Virus record (IMG/VR): IMGVR_UViG_3300023284_000153
Coordinates: 1-25,266 of that record
Origin: a virus
Reading direction: 5' to 3' (one strand)
DNA: 25,266 bases
Of this stretch, positions 645-23,942 are shown in pieces. A program made the position numbers and the translations under genes. The notes beneath the pieces are model-generated. The model ran no database searches. It saw only the letters and a list, made by a program, of their open reading frames with translations, and was not told the origin of the DNA. The stretch's first letter is position 1. Every line of letters begins with the position of its first letter.

Positions 645-1871
645 ATGTCAAGCTATAAAGTCATTCTTTCGCCCAAAAGAAATTTCCCTATCAAAACATG
701 GACGGCACACGTTCCAATAGAAGACGAAGCAAAAAAACAGCTTTACAATATTGCAGACATGTCGTTCGTTGATGGACTTTCGGTAATGCCGGACGTGCAC
801 TGGGGAATGGGTGCGACTATCGGGAGCGTTATTATTAGCCGTAAAGCCGTTATGCCTTCGGCGGTCGGCGTCGATATCGGTTGTGGTATGATAGCTCAAG
901 AGACATCATTAACAGCAGAGCAAATCCCAGACAAGATTAAAATAGTTCGTGAGTTTATCGAAAAAGCTGTGCCGCATGGCAAGACCTTTACGAAAAAGGA
1001 TATCGGAGCGTGGCACGACGCACCATCAGACGTAAATGATGCGTTCAAGCCATTGGTCAATGGCGCTGTAAGCATATTTGAGAAACACCCGAAAGTTATA
1101 CGTGCCGACATTTTGAACGGTCGCAACCATCTCGGAACCTTGGGTGGCGGAAACCATTTCATTGAACTATGCACGGACGAACGCGGCAAGGTTTGGGTTA
1201 TGTTACACAGCGGGTCTCGTGGAATTGGTAACACCATTGGCCGATATTTTATCGAGAAGGCTAAGAAACTAATGGACAAATTCTTGATAGAGTTGCCGGA
1301 TAGAGACTTGGCTTACCTTCCACTTGGCACACAGGAATACAAAGACTACGTCGGGGCTGTAAATTGGTGCCAAGACTACGCACGGATAAACCGCGAAGTA
1401 ATGATGCGCCGGACTATCGAGGCCATGGTAGGCAGTAGTTTATTCCCGTCGTTTTCACTCGAAGAGATGGCCATCAACTGTCACCACAACTATGTCACTT
1501 GGGAGAACCACAAAGGGAAGAACGTAATCATTACTAGAAAGGGAGCCGTTCGTGCCCGTGAAGGCGATCTTGGAATAATCCCCGGAAGTATGGGGGCGAA
1601 GAGTTACATCGTAGAGGGGCTAGGCAATCCCGAGAGTTTCCACTCTTGCAGTCACGGTGCAGGGCGGGCGATGTCAAGAAAGCAAGCGGAAAAACAATTT
1701 ACTTTGAGCGATCATGAAAAGGCCACGACCGGCGTTGAATGCCGAAAGGATGAATCAGTAATCGATGAAACCCCCGGCGCATACAAAGACATTGACAAGG
1801 TGATGGAATCTCAGGGTGATTTAGTGAAAATTCGACACACCTTGAAACAATTTCTTTGCGTAAAGGGATAG
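645..1871 (+). CDS. rtcB: RtcB-type RNA-splicing/repair ligase
   Basis: A 408-residue protein, the same length as E. coli RtcB and also ending in CVKG. RtcB joins 2',3'-cyclic phosphate (or 3'-phosphate) and 5'-OH RNA ends using GTP and Mn2+. All signature motifs are present: SVMPDVHWGMGATIGS (about 46-61), GVDIGCGM with metal ligand Cys80, LGGGNHF with His171, LHSGSRG with His188, the CHHN pair His280/281, and SCSHGAGR with the guanylylated His337. ARAEGD-like (REGDLG) and GSMGAKSY segments complete the active site. It therefore looks catalytically intact. A strong AGAGGAGGT ribosome site sits just before the ATG. In a phage the likely role is repair of tRNA or other RNA cut by host defence nucleases. 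No archease gene was seen next to it. Confidence 0.97.
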   Translation: MSSYKVILSPKRNFPIKTWTAHVPIEDEAKKQLYNIADMSFVDGLSVMPDVHWGMGATIGSVIISRKAVMPSAVGVDIGCGMIAQETSLTAEQIPDKIKIVREFIEKAVPHGKTFTKKDIGAWHDAPSDVNDAFKPLVNGAVSIFEKHPKVIRADILNGRNHLGTLGGGNHFIELCTDERGKVWVMLHSGSRGIGNTIGRYFIEKAKKLMDKFLIELPDRDLAYLPLGTQEYKDYVGAVNWCQDYARINREVMMRRTIEAMVGSSLFPSFSLEEMAINCHHNYVTWENHKGKNVIITRKGAVRAREGDLGIIPGSMGAKSYIVEGLGNPESFHSCSHGAGRAMSRKQAEKQFTLSDHEKATTGVECRKDESVIDETPGAYKDIDKVMESQGDLVKIRHTLKQFLCVKG

Positions 1872-1900
1872 TTGACACGTGCCTCCCACTAGATTAGAGT
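1872..1900 (+). promoter_or_regulatory. Sigma70-type promoter
   Basis: Perfect -35 TTGACA at 1872-1877, a 17-bp spacer, and -10 TAGAGT at 1895-1900 (4 of 6 to TATAAT). It lies in one of the few true intergenic gaps, just after the rtcB stop. Transcription would start near 1906-1908 and read into the hairpin at 1950-1988 and then the replication initiator gene. Confidence 0.6.
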
Positions 1901-1949
1901 CTTTGGTATGGAAACGGGTAGATTCGAGAGAGGTCTTTTTTCTTCATAC

Positions 1950-1988
1950 AGCCCCCCGCCCGTTTCCAAACGTTAGGGGGCTTTTTTT
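1950..1988 (+). terminator. Rho-independent terminator or attenuator directly before the initiator gene
   Basis: AGCCCCC (1950-1956) pairs with GGGGGCT (1976-1982), and an inner CGTTT/AAACG stem (1961-1965, 1968-1972) lies inside; a run of seven T (1982-1988) follows and ends at the ATG of the next gene. The GGGGG arm is also the only Shine-Dalgarno-like sequence before that ATG. Upstream GGAAACGGG (1910-1918) is a perfect complement of CCCGTTTCC (1959-1967), a possible antiterminator. The hairpin is seen directly; attenuation is inference. Confidence 0.65.
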
Positions 1989-2774
1989 ATGCCTAAACAT
2001 CCGGCGATTACAGCCGTGAAAGACGTGATCAAAACGCTATTAAAAGAGAAGCCGATTGCTTATAGGCGAGACTTCGCTCATTTGTTCGGCGGTGTTATGC
2101 CAGCCTTGTTTCTTAGTCAGTTGTTCTTTTGGTCAGACTTGGGAGAAGACGAAAACGGCTGGATTTATAAGACCATGGAAGAGTGGGAAAAGGAAACCGG
2201 CATGACGCGAAGTGAGCAAGAGTCGGCCAGAAGGAAGCTAAAAAAGAAGAAGGTTTTGCTAGAAAAATACTTCCGTAGAAGCGGCAAAAAGCTATATAAG
2301 GTCGATATGGATGTGCTGACAAATGCACTTTTGAAGCAATCGGGAATGCAGGATATAAGAACGGTCAAGCCGATATCCCGCAATGGCCGTTCCGATATCC
2401 CGCAATCTATTACAGAGATTACTCCAGAGACTACGTCAGAGATTACAACAGATATTAAGAATGCGGGCGTTAAAGAGCCCGCCCCTTTTCAAATATTAGC
2501 TGAGGATTGGTGTGAGTTTGTAAAGATCGATATTAAAGATCTCACAGCCAAAGACTGGAAAGCAATACATCAGCACATTAAGAAGGGCGCGGATATTGAA
2601 CAGCTCAAAGCCCTATCCGGGGCTGCATGGAAAGAGAAGAAACACGACCTGACAACCTTGTATCATTCCAGGGCTTCATTGCTTCCCAAGATCAAACCGA
2701 AGGATGAAAAGCTGTTTTGGACAGTCGAAGAAATGATGGAGAGGGACAGACAATCAAAAACAAAGACGAACTAA
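1989..2774 (+). CDS. Phage replication initiator / replisome organiser
   Basis: A 261-residue protein. The N-terminal 110 residues (AYRRDFAHLFGG, LFLSQLFFWSD, then a helical TMEEWEKETGMTRSEQ region and a basic KLKKKKVLLEKYF stretch) resemble the winged-helix DNA-binding domain of phage replication organisers. A low-complexity linker around residues 137-160 (SITEITPETTSEITTDI) is encoded by tandem 12-bp DNA repeats, as in initiators that carry the origin inside their own gene. The C-terminal 90 residues would bind the loader or helicase. The ATG abuts the terminator T-run; the only SD-like sequence is GGGGG inside the hairpin. The following gene for an AAA+ loader supports the assignment. The function rests on motif resemblance and context. 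Confidence 0.75.
   Translation: MPKHPAITAVKDVIKTLLKEKPIAYRRDFAHLFGGVMPALFLSQLFFWSDLGEDENGWIYKTMEEWEKETGMTRSEQESARRKLKKKKVLLEKYFRRSGKKLYKVDMDVLTNALLKQSGMQDIRTVKPISRNGRSDIPQSITEITPETTSEITTDIKNAGVKEPAPFQILAEDWCEFVKIDIKDLTAKDWKAIHQHIKKGADIEQLKALSGAAWKEKKHDLTTLYHSRASLLPKIKPKDEKLFWTVEEMMERDRQSKTKTN
2370..2460 (+). repeat. Iteron-like repeats, candidate replication origin
   Basis: Inside the initiator gene a 15-bp sequence CCGATATCCCGCAAT occurs at 2370-2384 and again at 2392-2406. It is followed by three 12-bp-spaced copies of CAGAGAYTAC starting at 2413, 2425 and 2437, and a degenerate fourth (CAGATATTAA) at 2449. Exact periodicity and location within the initiator gene match the lambda-O type of origin. 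Origin function is inferred. Confidence 0.5.
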
Positions 2775-3307
2775 TTAAGAAGTATGTTGATCTCATGAGA
2801 GAAAGACTTTCCGGCGCTTTAGGCGACTTGCCTGAAAATGGACTGTGGGAATCTCAAACACGAGCCGCCAATAATTCGCCACCGCTATGGATTTTCGGTA
2901 AAGCGGGAACAGGAAAAACAACGGTGGCCCACAGGATCGCGCTGGATATTTACAAGTCAGGACTAGAACCATATGAAAACGGCTACTCATGCAAGGAGAA
3001 CGAACCTAAACCAATACCATTTATGGCTTACTCACTTTGTCGAGAATTTCAAAAGGCGAGCCTAGACAACGAAGACTATGAACCAACCGACCTTTTGTAT
3101 GTGATCGATGATATCGACAAGATCAAAATGACTGAATTCCGAGAGGAGCAATTTTTCATATTCTTTGACCGCTGCCTAAAATTAAAACGAAAGCTGATAG
3201 TTACTAGCCAGAAGAGCATGAAAGAATTCTCCCAGATGTTCTCAGGTGATTTTGTAGGCGCAGTTAACCGGCGCTTGGATGCTATTTTTAAGGAGGTAGA
3301 ATTATGA
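2717..3307 (+). CDS. DnaC-like AAA+ ATPase, probable helicase loader
   Basis: Walker A GKAGTGKT (residues 61-68 from the TTG start), Walker B LLYVIDDID (126-134), a sensor-1-like IVTSQ (161-165) and an RR pair (185-186) define a small DnaC/IstB-type P-loop ATPase. It would load the replicative helicase together with the initiator encoded just upstream. The start is uncertain: the longest frame begins with TTG at 2717, overlapping the initiator by 58 bases, while the first in-frame ATG is at 2795 and gives 170 residues; neither has a convincing ribosome site. It ends in a 4-base ATGA overlap with the next gene. Confidence 0.85.
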   Translation: MDSRRNDGEGQTIKNKDELIKKYVDLMRERLSGALGDLPENGLWESQTRAANNSPPLWIFGKAGTGKTTVAHRIALDIYKSGLEPYENGYSCKENEPKPIPFMAYSLCREFQKASLDNEDYEPTDLLYVIDDIDKIKMTEFREEQFFIFFDRCLKLKRKLIVTSQKSMKEFSQMFSGDFVGAVNRRLDAIFKEVEL

Positions 3308-3699
3308 ACAATCAGTTACAAGAAAGGCTAATCAAAAGCATGGATGAAATTGCAAGCTGGATAGAAAGCTCGAAGGAATTTGCAATAGAACATGCACCGG
3401 AAGTTGCTCAAGAGATTCTTACAAGAGGATTAATGGCAGGCTGGACGCATATTATCGTATCGGTTCTGTTTTTCGCGGCGGGAATTATCTTATTCAGAAT
3501 AGGAAGCACTGTGATTATTCATCGTGATTATGGTGATACAAAATATAAATCATCGAGATTTGAAGGCGGGCAATGGTTAGCTTTAATAGCTGGAAACATT
3601 ATTGGCTTAGTAATACTCGGAACAGGATTTTATAAGATTGCGATAATTACCATGACACCAAAACTATATCTCTTGGAGCACATCAGGAGATATCTGTAA
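3304..3699 (+). CDS. Small membrane protein, phage type
   Basis: A 131-residue protein with a soluble helical N-terminus (about 1-45, including SKEFAIEHAPEVAQEIL) and two hydrophobic segments, about 46-66 (HIIVSVLFFAAGIILF) and 90-110 (LALIAGNIIGLVILGTGFY). The layout resembles unnamed phage membrane proteins whose N-terminus carries a HAPxxxQE-like motif. Strong AAGGAGGT ribosome site at 3291-3297 and ATGA overlap with the loader. A holin-like role is possible but not shown. Confidence 0.8.
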   Translation: MNNQLQERLIKSMDEIASWIESSKEFAIEHAPEVAQEILTRGLMAGWTHIIVSVLFFAAGIILFRIGSTVIIHRDYGDTKYKSSRFEGGQWLALIAGNIIGLVILGTGFYKIAIITMTPKLYLLEHIRRYL

Positions 3700-3722
3700 A
3701 TGAGATCCTTGGAATTAATCAA

Positions 3723-4064
3723 ATGAATCAAGAGGTTGGAATTGTGACCGAAGAGGTTAAAATACTTAGGGATGCGCTTGATAAATGTTTTACTGAAAGC
3801 ACCGTAAACGAACCTGTATTATATGAACAAGCATTGTCTAAAATATGCGGCATAAGTAGAGAAGCCTTGAAACAAACTAACCTGAGAAAGGAACTACCGA
3901 ATGGGCAAGATATGGGAGATTTGCAACGGCGCAAGCAGGATGCCATTTTACAAATACACCATTACTCCCAAGTTATCAAAACCCTTGATGAGCATATGAC
4001 ACATGAACTGAAAAATGACGGCAATACCAAATTTATCGACAAAGAGACTGAGGAGGCATATTAG
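3723..4064 (+). CDS. Hypothetical protein, ILRxAL family member 1
   Basis: A 113-residue protein with TEEVKILRDALDKC at residues 9-22. The same EVxILRxAL motif opens five other small proteins in this window. The remainder is charged and helical (DLQRRKQDAILQIHHYSQVIKTLDE). A 9-codon micro-ORF (3700-3726) starts immediately after the upstream stop and ends overlapping this ATG, possibly coupling translation. No membrane segment or known domain. Confidence 0.75.
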   Translation: MNQEVGIVTEEVKILRDALDKCFTESTVNEPVLYEQALSKICGISREALKQTNLRKELPNGQDMGDLQRRKQDAILQIHHYSQVIKTLDEHMTHELKNDGNTKFIDKETEEAY

Positions 4065-5433: not shown

Positions 5434-6456
5434 ATGAAAAGCAAGAAAACTAAGAAGACCAAAGAGGAAGGATTCAAGCCGAAAGAAAACCTGAAACTTG
5501 CTATACAGGAAATTAATAAAATATTTGGACCAGGAGCACTCATGAGACTAGGAGAAAATAAACACACCAAGGCCCCGTCAATATCTACCGGCACGATAGG
5601 ATTAGATTTGGCTACTGGTATAGGCGGCGTTCCCAAGGGAAGGGTGATTGAAATATTTGGCCCGGCTGGATCTGGGAAGACAACCCTTGCGCTTCACTTA
5701 GTTGCAGAATGCCAGAAGAAAAAAGGCACAGTTGCATTTATAGATTCGGAACATGCTTTAGACGTAGACTATGCTAAAAACTTGGGCGTAAATATTGACG
5801 ATTTGCTTTGTTCACAGCCGGAAACCGCCGAAGAAACTTTAGAGATTGCAGATACTTTAGTAAAATCCAAAGCAGTAGATTTAATTGTAATTGATTCTGT
5901 CGCTGCTATGTGCACGAAGGCGGAACTTTTAGGAACGATGGGCCAGTCTCATGTTGGATTGTTACCGCGTTTAATGTCTCAGGCTTTACGTAAGCTCACG
6001 GCTACAGTTCACAAGACCGGAACTTGTTTGGTATTCATAAACCAGATTCGCATGAAGGTTAACATGGGGCCGTTTATGGGAAACCCCGAAATAACACCCG
6101 GAGGTCATGCGCTTAAGTTTCACGCTTCGATGAGAATAGACGTAAGGCACATTGCGAAAATAAACAAAGACGAAAATACCATAGGGTCAAGGGTGAGGGT
6201 GCGACTTGTCAAGAATAAAATGTCGGCCCCTTACCGATTTGCAGAACTTGACTTGATATTTGGCAAGGGATTTTCACGGGAAGCAAGCCTGATAGAAACC
6301 GGAATCATGAAAGGAATTATTGATCTCAAAGGGTCCTGGTATTCTTTTGGGGACGAAAAGCTGGGACAAGGAAAGTCTCAGGCCGGTGAACTTCTCAATG
6401 CGTCACCAAATTTAGAAGCCGAAATAATCAAGAAAATCATGGAGGTGCAAGAATGA
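5434..6456 (+). CDS. recA: RecA recombinase
   Basis: A 340-residue RecA, slightly shorter than the E. coli protein. Walker A GPAGSGKT (76-83), FIDSEHALD with the catalytic Glu106, Walker B DLIVIDSVAA (149-157), and the DNA-binding loop L2 beginning INQIRMK (203-209) and ending NPEITPGG. The C-terminal domain includes GSWYSFGDEKLGQG, as in bacterial RecA. It would carry out strand exchange in phage recombination or recombination-dependent replication. L2 reads NMGPFMGNPE instead of the usual GVMFGNPE, two residues longer. Ribosome site AAGGGGGG just before the ATG; ATGA overlap with the next gene. Confidence 0.96.
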   Translation: MKSKKTKKTKEEGFKPKENLKLAIQEINKIFGPGALMRLGENKHTKAPSISTGTIGLDLATGIGGVPKGRVIEIFGPAGSGKTTLALHLVAECQKKKGTVAFIDSEHALDVDYAKNLGVNIDDLLCSQPETAEETLEIADTLVKSKAVDLIVIDSVAAMCTKAELLGTMGQSHVGLLPRLMSQALRKLTATVHKTGTCLVFINQIRMKVNMGPFMGNPEITPGGHALKFHASMRIDVRHIAKINKDENTIGSRVRVRLVKNKMSAPYRFAELDLIFGKGFSREASLIETGIMKGIIDLKGSWYSFGDEKLGQGKSQAGELLNASPNLEAEIIKKIMEVQE

Positions 6457-9444: not shown

Positions 9445-9603
9445 ATGAGACTTAAAATGAGTCTGGACACAATGCCATACCCTAGAGGCAAAAAGCCAAT
9501 ATCGAGTATATTGCATCTTAGTGACGAACAAATGAAAAAACGGTTCCCACATGCTAAGAGAAAAAAGAGAGCATCTTTTCGGCGTAAGAAGTGTAATCAA
9601 TGA
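9445..9603 (+). CDS. Small basic protein, copy 1 of a duplicated pair (52 aa)
   Basis: A strongly basic protein with GKKPISSILHLSDEQMKKRF and PHAK, nearly repeated in the protein at 14710 (KRPISSVLHLSDERMKKRF, PHAK). Ribosome site GAGGTGA at 9432-9438. The tail KRKKRASFRRKKCNQ is very basic and may bind nucleic acid. The conservation between two distant copies supports real coding. Confidence 0.7.
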   Translation: MRLKMSLDTMPYPRGKKPISSILHLSDEQMKKRFPHAKRKKRASFRRKKCNQ

Positions 9604-14709: not shown

Positions 14710-14862
14710 ATGATTCATAACTCCCAAAAAAAATTGATCGTATGTCCGATACCACAGAGCAAGGGCAAAAGGCCAATATCCAGCGTATTGCATTTGAGTG
14801 ACGAACGAATGAAAAAACGGTTCCCACATGCTAAGAGCGCAAAAAGGTATAGCTGGAATTAG
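14710..14862 (+). CDS. Small basic protein, copy 2 of a duplicated pair (50 aa)
   Basis: Matches the gene at 9445: GKRPISSVLHLSDERMKKRF and PHAK here against GKKPISSILHLSDEQMKKRF and PHAK there, with different N- and C-termini. Ribosome site AGGAGAGAGA just upstream. The stop overlaps the GTG of the next gene (TAGTG). Confidence 0.7.
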   Translation: MIHNSQKKLIVCPIPQSKGKRPISSVLHLSDERMKKRFPHAKSAKRYSWN

Positions 14863-15852: not shown

Positions 15853-16079
15853 TCCCACACACTAACGGAATGAGTAAGGCAATATGCCCAGAGTGTAAGT
15901 TTGAGAACTGGTATGACACGGCGCACATGCAAGAGTTGCATAAAGGAAGATATGCAAATCTTCTACCTACCAAAGTAGAATGCGGAAGATGTAAAAGCAC
16001 CACCGTAAAAATAAACAACCAAAAGGAATGCGAATGGCACAAAGTCGGTGAAGGAATAGAGCGTGAGGCGATAGCATGA
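15849..16079 (+). CDS. Small zinc-ribbon protein (76 aa)
   Basis: The ATG at 15849 overlaps the upstream stop by ATGA and is preferred to the longer frame from 15777, which runs through the upstream gene. CPECKFENWY and CGRCKSTTV form a four-Cys ribbon about 35 residues apart; a further Cys/His (CEWHK) follows. It ends in ATGA overlap with the three-Cys-motif gene. Confidence 0.68.
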   Translation: MIPHTNGMSKAICPECKFENWYDTAHMQELHKGRYANLLPTKVECGRCKSTTVKINNQKECEWHKVGEGIEREAIA

Positions 16080-16786
16080 GTGACAAGTCTGGAATCGAAT
16101 GGACAGATGCCACTTGGAATCCTGTTACTGGATGCACAAAGATTAGTCATGGGTGCGACAATTGTTACGCTGAAACTTTCGCGGAACGATGGCGCGGACT
16201 TAAGGACCACCATTACGAACAGGGTTTTGATTTGAAATTATGGCCGGACAGAATGTCTATACCGTTAAGGTGGTCAAGGCCAAGAAAGATATTCGTTAAT
16301 AGTATGTCAGATTTATTTCACAAGGACGTCCCAAGCGATTTCATTGAATGGGTATTTTCAATAATGAAAAAATGTCCACTCCATACGTTCCAGGTTCTTA
16401 CGAAACGTTCCGAGAGAATGAAGTTATTTAATTGGCGACGGAATATGTGGGCTGGAACATCGGTAGAATCAAAGAATTATCAATTTAGAATTGATAGACT
16501 CAGAGAAACAAACGCGGAGACAAAATTCCTATCGTTAGAACCTCTTTTGGGCCCACTAGATAACCTTAACTTGGATAGTATCGGGTGGGTAATTGTTGGA
16601 GGTGAATCTGGGCCGGGAGCTAGACCAATGGAGGAAAGCTGGGTTAGAGAAATTCGTGATCAATGCATTGAACAGAGCGTGCCATTTTTCTTTAAGCAAT
16701 GGGGAGGCGTGAACAAGAAAAAGACTGGCCGCTTATTGGATGGACGGGAATATAACGAGATGCCTAAAGATAAAGTTCTAGCCTAA
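16076..16786 (+). CDS. DUF5131 family (phage Gp37/Gp68) three-cysteine protein
   Basis: A 236-residue protein with the family start IEWTDATWNPVTGCTKISHG and the CDNCYAE motif: Cys20, Cys27 and Cys30 form the C-x6-C-x2-C cluster. Further family blocks are FVNSMSDLFHKDVP, FQVLTKR, LSLEPLLGPL, WVIVGGESGPGARP and PFFFKQWGG. The cluster suggests an iron-sulfur, radical-SAM-like enzyme, but the reaction is not established. Family members are often found with the TcmP partner; none was seen in this window. It is coupled to a zinc-ribbon gene and precedes the large terminase. Confidence 0.9.
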   Translation: MSDKSGIEWTDATWNPVTGCTKISHGCDNCYAETFAERWRGLKDHHYEQGFDLKLWPDRMSIPLRWSRPRKIFVNSMSDLFHKDVPSDFIEWVFSIMKKCPLHTFQVLTKRSERMKLFNWRRNMWAGTSVESKNYQFRIDRLRETNAETKFLSLEPLLGPLDNLNLDSIGWVIVGGESGPGARPMEESWVREIRDQCIEQSVPFFFKQWGGVNKKKTGRLLDGREYNEMPKDKVLA

Positions 16787-23478: not shown

Positions 23479-23622
23479 ATGACCAAAGAGGTTAGGATTC
23501 TCAGGGACGCGCTTGAGAAAATGGCTACAGGGAAAACAGACGGGGGATTTCCGTTGTCCGTATTTGATTATCAGGAGCGTTCAAAAAATTCCCTCGAACA
23601 AGCCGACGAAATAATTAATTGA
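23479..23622 (+). CDS. Hypothetical protein, ILRxAL family member 6 (47 aa)
   Basis: TKEVRILRDALEKMATGK at the N-terminus and KNSLEQADEIIN at the C-terminus match the head and tail of the family; the middle is variable. It starts one base after the previous frame ends and its stop overlaps the TTG start of the XRE gene. Function unknown. Confidence 0.72.
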   Translation: MTKEVRILRDALEKMATGKTDGGFPLSVFDYQERSKNSLEQADEIIN

Positions 23623-23942
23623 CGGGCGAGAAACTAAAACGACTTAGAATAAAACGCGGCTTGTCTCAGTCTGCACTTGCTACCAAATCAGAAGTATCTC
23701 AGAAAACAATATCCAGGATCGAAAGCGGGCAGACTGGAATACTTATGCTTAGAGGAGATGCGATCAAAAGGATTTCGTTGGCTCTTGATATCCCGCCAGC
23801 ATTAACCATGTCTTCCGGTAATGGTATTTTTTCTATAAGCGATTCTGAAAAGGATTTGATAAAAGATATTCGCCAACTTCCAGAACAAAAAAAGGTAAGA
23901 GTAAAGCGTTACGTAGAGTTCGAATTAGTCTGCACTGACTAG
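23619..23942 (+). CDS. XRE-family helix-turn-helix transcriptional regulator
   Basis: A 107-residue cI/Xre-like protein. LKRLRIKRGLSQSALATKSE, VSQKTISRIESGQTG and AIKRISLALDIPPALT form the five-helix HTH_3 domain; the C-terminus (LIKDIRQLPEQKKVRVKRYV) is a short helical dimerisation-type region. TTG start with a 4-base TTGA overlap; no SD seen. It has no LexA-like peptidase domain, so it would not self-cleave. A 15-base palindrome lies about 50 bases downstream. A regulator at this place inside the head genes is uncommon. Confidence 0.83.
   Translation: MTGEKLKRLRIKRGLSQSALATKSEVSQKTISRIESGQTGILMLRGDAIKRISLALDIPPALTMSSGNGIFSISDSEKDLIKDIRQLPEQKKVRVKRYVEFELVCTD

Follow-up and report, generated by a model that had tools for sequence, protein, structure and literature searches.

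A possible transcription and translation attenuator before the replication initiator gene of an uncultured phage

The leader between a promoter and the replication initiator gene of this phage is read as an attenuator that would act on transcription and probably also on translation of the initiator, with a probability of roughly 0.7. This reading is predicted from sequence and folding, and a comparison with one related phage, in the following called the relative, supports what the original prediction had offered as a possibility. The window, i.e. the whole stretch of DNA analysed, comprises 25,266 bases and is the full length of an uncultured virus record.

Promoter, leader and replication genes

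The genes and promoter elements at this locus are listed with their window coordinates.

645-1871: RtcB RNA-ligase gene, upstream of the leader (Pfam, E 4e-123)
1872-1877, plus strand: -35 box TTGACA, hexamer and spacer length unchanged in the relative
1895-1900, plus strand: -10 box TAGAGT, the relative having TATGGT at this position
1989-2774, plus strand: replication initiator gene (O-like), 261 codons, matching phrog_9773 'replication initiation O-like' (E 7e-32)
2717-3307: DnaC-like helicase loader, after the replication initiator gene

Since an O-like initiator begins at 1989 and a DnaC-like helicase loader follows, the leader stands before the replication module. The stop codon of the RtcB gene (1869-1871) directly abuts the -35 box at 1872. 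Database matches of RtcB bear on the upstream gene only and were set aside as evidence on the leader.

The promoter of the original prediction, TTGACA-17-TAGAGT, is present at 1872-1900 and corresponds to TTGACA-17-TATGGT in the relative. It agrees with the consensus at 10 of 12 positions and is the best plus-strand match within 1000-4000, a region in which the total number of promoter-like sites is the same as in shuffled sequences. As the -10 box ends at 1900, transcription is expected to start 5-7 nt after it, at approximately 1905-1907. The predicted leader from the promoter to the ATG at 1989 has a length of about 83 nt (1905-1988), close to the 80 bases claimed before, and does end in a terminator hairpin with a T-run at this ATG. 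The hairpin and the sites overlapping it are composed as follows.

1950-1956, plus strand: 5' arm of the terminator hairpin, AGCCCCC, pairing with 1976-1982 in both phages according to folding
1961-1972, plus strand: inner stem-loop of the terminator, CGUU UCCA AACG, with C1961-G1972 being U-A in the relative
1975-1980, plus strand: AGGGGG, resembling a Shine-Dalgarno sequence of the replication gene and located in the 3' arm of the terminator
1976-1982, plus strand: 3' arm of the terminator hairpin, GGGGGCU
1982-1988, plus strand: T-run of the terminator (T7), adjoining the ATG at 1989; six T in the relative

Taken alone, the terminator hairpin folds better than nearly all shuffled sequences (z -2.75; relative z -2.66). 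For the whole leader, the fold energy is unremarkable in the window (z -0.81), with z -2.50 in the relative. The GGGGG arm had been described as the only ribosome-site-like sequence of the gene, and this was confirmed: AGGGGG in the 3' arm forms a duplex of -9.3 kcal/mol with the anti-Shine-Dalgarno sequence and is the sole good ribosome site for the ATG at 1989. Several other genes of the window, unlike the replication gene, have a separate site of the AGGAGG type. In the relative, AAGGGGG (-10.7 kcal/mol with the anti-Shine-Dalgarno sequence) is located before a TTG made from the T-run, the choice of the start codon being uncertain. With the Shine-Dalgarno sequence in the terminator arm and the T-run at the start codon, one hairpin would block both transcription and translation.

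Two competing pairings and their conservation

The interior of the terminator hairpin is also one strand of a second helix, the putative antiterminator.

1906-1919, plus strand: 5' strand of the antiterminator (pre-emptor) helix, 13 pairs with 1958-1971, of which 13/13 are kept in the relative
1958-1971, plus strand: 3' strand of the antiterminator helix, also the interior of the terminator hairpin

The perfect 9-nt complement between GGAAACGGG (1910-1918) and CCCGTTTCC (1959-1967) was found and is longer than had been claimed. It is extended by U1909-A1968 and U1919.G1958 and, beyond the single mismatch A1908.A1969, by U1907-A1970 and G1906-C1971, which results in 13 pairs (1906-1907 and 1909-1919 with 1958-1968 and 1970-1971). 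Judged from the promoter, the 5' strand of this complement would be the extreme 5' end, the first 14 nt, of the predicted RNA. It forms the single complement pair in the window, with no second leader target sequence there, and the gapped complement pattern occurs once in the window and in none of the shuffles. The claim that the two pairings exclude each other stands for nested structures, but not strictly, since an H-type pseudoknot would be conceivable if the first helix were shortened to 10 bp, with an 8-nt third loop.

For the search for relatives, IMG/VR was scanned with the replication protein, the helicase loader, RtcB, the terminase, the portal protein and the leader DNA pattern, and genome scans were added. 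The relative, IMGVR_UViG_3300010939_000011 (35,615 b), was found via the terminase (approximately 76% amino acid identity); no other true relative of the leader was obtained in the IMG/VR and genome scans. Further matches of the leader pattern consisted of a 17-mer within unrelated sequence, without the remaining leader, and were discarded. No such leader precedes thirty-odd distantly homologous replication genes, and the leader therefore belongs to this phage lineage. The locus L129 has an ordinary terminator and a separate ribosome site before its gene. The window leader gave no match in blastn against phage and plasmid records, and the leader of the relative, compared with phages only, gave a weak one (E 0.4, Lactococcus phage PLgT-1). 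In Rfam, no family reached the gathering score in the window, and only chance-level matches (E 0.12-10) were obtained.

Promoter, leader and hairpin share 75% DNA identity between both phages (window 1872-1987, relative L089 2396-2282) and are located before homologous replication genes, the products of which are 44% identical in amino acid sequence. The upstream gene differs, being rtcB in the window and another gene in the relative, but the block is kept, so that promoter, leader and initiator form a conserved unit. Since rtcB is missing from the corresponding place in the relative, it may be a recent neighbour.

A comparison of the arms in related phages had been suggested as a check. The relative has kept the terminator, the T-run and the Shine-Dalgarno sequence within the arm, and it has kept the segment 1910-1918 and its partner with compensatory changes. 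The 5' strand changes from GGAAACGGGU to GGCAACGGGA and its partner from GCCCGUUUCC to UCCUGUUGCC, with 13 of 13 standard pairs in the antiterminator of both phages. Two pairs are doubly changed (A1912-U1965 to C-G, U1919.G1958 to A-U) and one singly (G1916-C1961 to G.U); as a control, sliding the partner by 1-3 columns left 31-50% paired. The terminator is paired at 11 of 11 positions in both phages, with a double change of C1961-G1972 to U-A and a change of C1952-G1980 to U.G. Base 1961 is common to both structures, changed once and is still paired in both foldings. Differences are found at 7 of the 42 paired and 18 of the 33 unpaired positions. Seven random substitutions on 42 positions keep both structures with P 6.8e-5, and random substitutions keep the antiterminator alone with P 0.002-0.004. 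Letter shuffling between the two sequences reached 127/500, a test that is powerless with only two sequences; the covariation as a whole comprises these two sequences and three double changes. As segment, partner and terminator are kept with compensatory changes, selection probably acts on both foldings.

These data bear on two explanations in which the leader RNA does not switch. One is an ordinary terminator of the upstream operon beside an ordinary promoter of the replication gene, with a complement arisen by chance. In its favour, neither promoter-like nor terminator-like sites are commoner in the window than in shuffles, but a terminator downstream of the promoter would stop transcription from the very promoter of the gene. 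Furthermore, a perfect complement of 10 nt was reached in only 3 of 5000 dinucleotide-shuffled 5' parts, the complement is kept with double changes, and the block stays in the relative despite the different upstream gene; we consider this explanation very improbable. The other is an inverted repeat acting at the DNA level, with the arms as half-sites for a phage repressor or the initiator. Arms changing in step would also be consistent with co-evolution with a DNA-binding protein. Nevertheless, this is extremely improbable, as the 13-mer has no further copy with 0-1 mismatch in the window, the 9-mer does not recur exactly in the examined parts of the relative, and 2 of the 13 pairs are G.U in one or the other phage, a feature that fits RNA but not half-sites in DNA.

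Predicted folding and the proposed switch

When the leader was folded at growing length, the antiterminator dominated in both phages until the 3' arm (1976-1981) was made. At full length, antiterminator and terminator states were calculated at -21.9 versus -24.7 kcal/mol in the window and -25.3 versus -20.9 kcal/mol in the relative, i.e. the favoured state is the terminator in the former and the antiterminator in the latter. Folding with and without the 5' segment, also suggested earlier, gave the terminator in both phages once the 5' strand was removed. The 5' strand has yet another partner: 1906-1912 (GUAUGGA) can pair with 1943-1949 (UUCAUAC), which aids the terminator state in the window; this hairpin is not kept in the relative and is therefore outside the conserved design.

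In the attenuator reading, RNA polymerase would start near 1905-1907, and the first 14 nt of the emerging RNA (1906-1919) would pair with 1958-1971, the inner strand of the terminator. Since this helix would form before the 3' arm 1976-1982 exists, the nascent RNA would by default be antiterminated, with the gene transcribed and the AGGGGG ribosome site free. If a protein or a trans RNA captured the 5' strand, or if this strand paired elsewhere, the hairpin 1950-1956/1976-1982 with its T-run would form. Transcription would then stop at the start codon, and the ribosome site would be buried in any transcripts that escape. From the modelled folding we infer default readthrough, ended by capture of the 5' strand, as the natural reading. 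Only tentatively, and with less than even confidence, do we suggest that the leader is a self-contained phage RNA switch of about 83 nt, the first 14 nt of which would be both antiterminator and sensor for the replication initiator. Having no antisense gene, it would answer a trans RNA or protein, possibly among the phage's own products, and exert a plasmid-style copy-number or timing control of DNA replication.

Promoter, leader and terminator with T-run also make up a complete unit, conserved in both phages, that might produce an independent small RNA of about 83 nt acting elsewhere or, in trans, on the mRNA that arises when its own terminator is passed, with the replication gene read only by readthrough. 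A precedent is IsrK, a documented terminated leader RNA of a prophage that acts on its readthrough mRNA (PMC4825925). In a pure small RNA, however, the long 5' pairing, which compensatory changes have preserved, would counter the terminator. The Shine-Dalgarno sequence in the terminator arm and the junction of T-run and start codon, found in both phages, tie the element to the gene and would be left unexplained by a stand-alone RNA. Simple two-strand folding gave other contacts instead of a pairing of nascent and finished leader through the complement. A stand-alone small RNA is thus regarded as unlikely.

The leader also contains a short open frame.

1908-1976, plus strand: open frame METGRFERGLFSSYSPPPVSKR with stop codon (MET...SPPPVSKR), not supported as coding

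If this frame were translated from the 5' end, the position of the ribosome or its stalling (PPP) could select the fold or couple translation to the replication gene, as in a leader-peptide attenuator. Both phages have an open frame with an ATG in the conserved 5' segment and a common SPPPV, and the frame of the relative runs to a TGA near the possible gene starts. Against translation, 1-3 nt separate the ATG from the predicted 5' end, so that the frame has no Shine-Dalgarno sequence. Differences in the loop are distributed 8/5/5 over the codon positions, with 2 of 10 residues identical, which indicates no coding constraint in the loop, and the identical residues are mostly found where the RNA helices are. 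The translated open reading frame, coding constraint and Shine-Dalgarno sequence typical of trp/his-type leader peptides were not found at the leader, and control by a leader peptide is considered improbable.

Known attenuators and further features of both phages

Attenuators that join termination with masking of the ribosome site are textbook elements in the control of plasmid replication initiators. In repC of the Staphylococcus aureus plasmid pT181, the terminator directly precedes the start codon and its 3' arm includes the ribosome site, so that one hairpin blocks transcription and translation (PMC5703833, PMC5435934). Common to pT181 and the leader described here are the untranslated stretch between promoter and replication initiator, the terminator that adjoins the start codon and has the Shine-Dalgarno sequence in its 3' arm (in both phages) and the upstream pre-emptor strand, which keeps the terminator from forming (PMC5703833, PMC5435934). 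In contrast to repC, the gene controlled would be a phage O-like initiator and not that of a rolling-circle plasmid, the leader has only about 83 nt, and the pre-emptor is formed by the 14 nt at the 5' end of the predicted RNA, which pair with the hairpin interior and not with the outer 5' arm. No consensus-like promoter of at least 8/12 was found on the minus strand of the window within 1920-2300, so that the countertranscript, a hallmark of pT181-type attenuators, was not found here, although on paper the leader operates as they do; the relative has one minus-strand promoter-like site (9/12), which is not common to the window. Premature termination in the leader also controls the replication initiator RepR of pIP501 and pAMbeta1, the pIP501 leader being 329 bp long and accompanied by the antisense RNAIII and the repressor CopR (PMC4981023), whereas no antisense promoter was found for the phage leader.

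If the attenuator works as read, the logic of plasmid initiators would set when the phage begins to copy its DNA. New in this case would be that a compact element at the 5' terminus of a phage transcript attenuates a replication initiator in the manner of plasmids; the leader is unusually short, and its switch strand would be the extreme 5' end. Such a leader would be a compact model of co-transcriptional folding and raises the question of the trans signal that sets phage replication.

Among phages, the C4 RNA of P1-P7 places antirepressor genes under leader pairing and premature termination. In the satellite phage P4, replication genes are controlled by leader pairing and premature termination via the CI RNA (PMC4825925). 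For both P4 CI and C4, a processed trans RNA matches two separate targets, whereas one complement and no Rfam match are found here. With IsrK (isrK-orf45-anrP of the prophage Gifsy-1), the leader would have in common a terminated leader RNA, a readthrough mRNA and alternative foldings (PMC4825925). IsrK differs in controlling an antirepressor operon, by a translational switch via a separate open reading frame, and the leader described here has no Rfam match. By analogy, a dual role as small RNA and mRNA is possible.

Several other features of the two phages were recorded. The 3' end of the replication gene (window 2425-2775) has 70% DNA identity to the relative, the 5' half being without a DNA match, and the last residues of the protein, DRQSKTKTN, are identical in both; this conserved end could hold a protein-protein contact or an origin. 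A protein of 150 amino acids is encoded between replication initiator and helicase loader in the relative (L089 1027-1479, minus strand) but not in the window; by eye only, it reads like an HNH homing endonuclease. The phage in the window has its own RecA (5434-6456, E 1e-112) and a small XRE/RstR-like regulator (23619-23942), encoded late within the structural region. A direct repeat of 83 nt (87% identical) is present at 9487-9569 and 14764-14846, 5.3 kb apart, and both copies encode the common peptide KPISS-LHLSDE-MKKRFPHAK in two small reading frames. A DUF5131 protein (window 16076-16786, E 1.5e-96) is weakly similar to 'radical SAM mobile pair protein A', and a DUF5131-like gene, recognized by eye, is located in a different place and on the opposite strand in the relative (L088 15549-16271).
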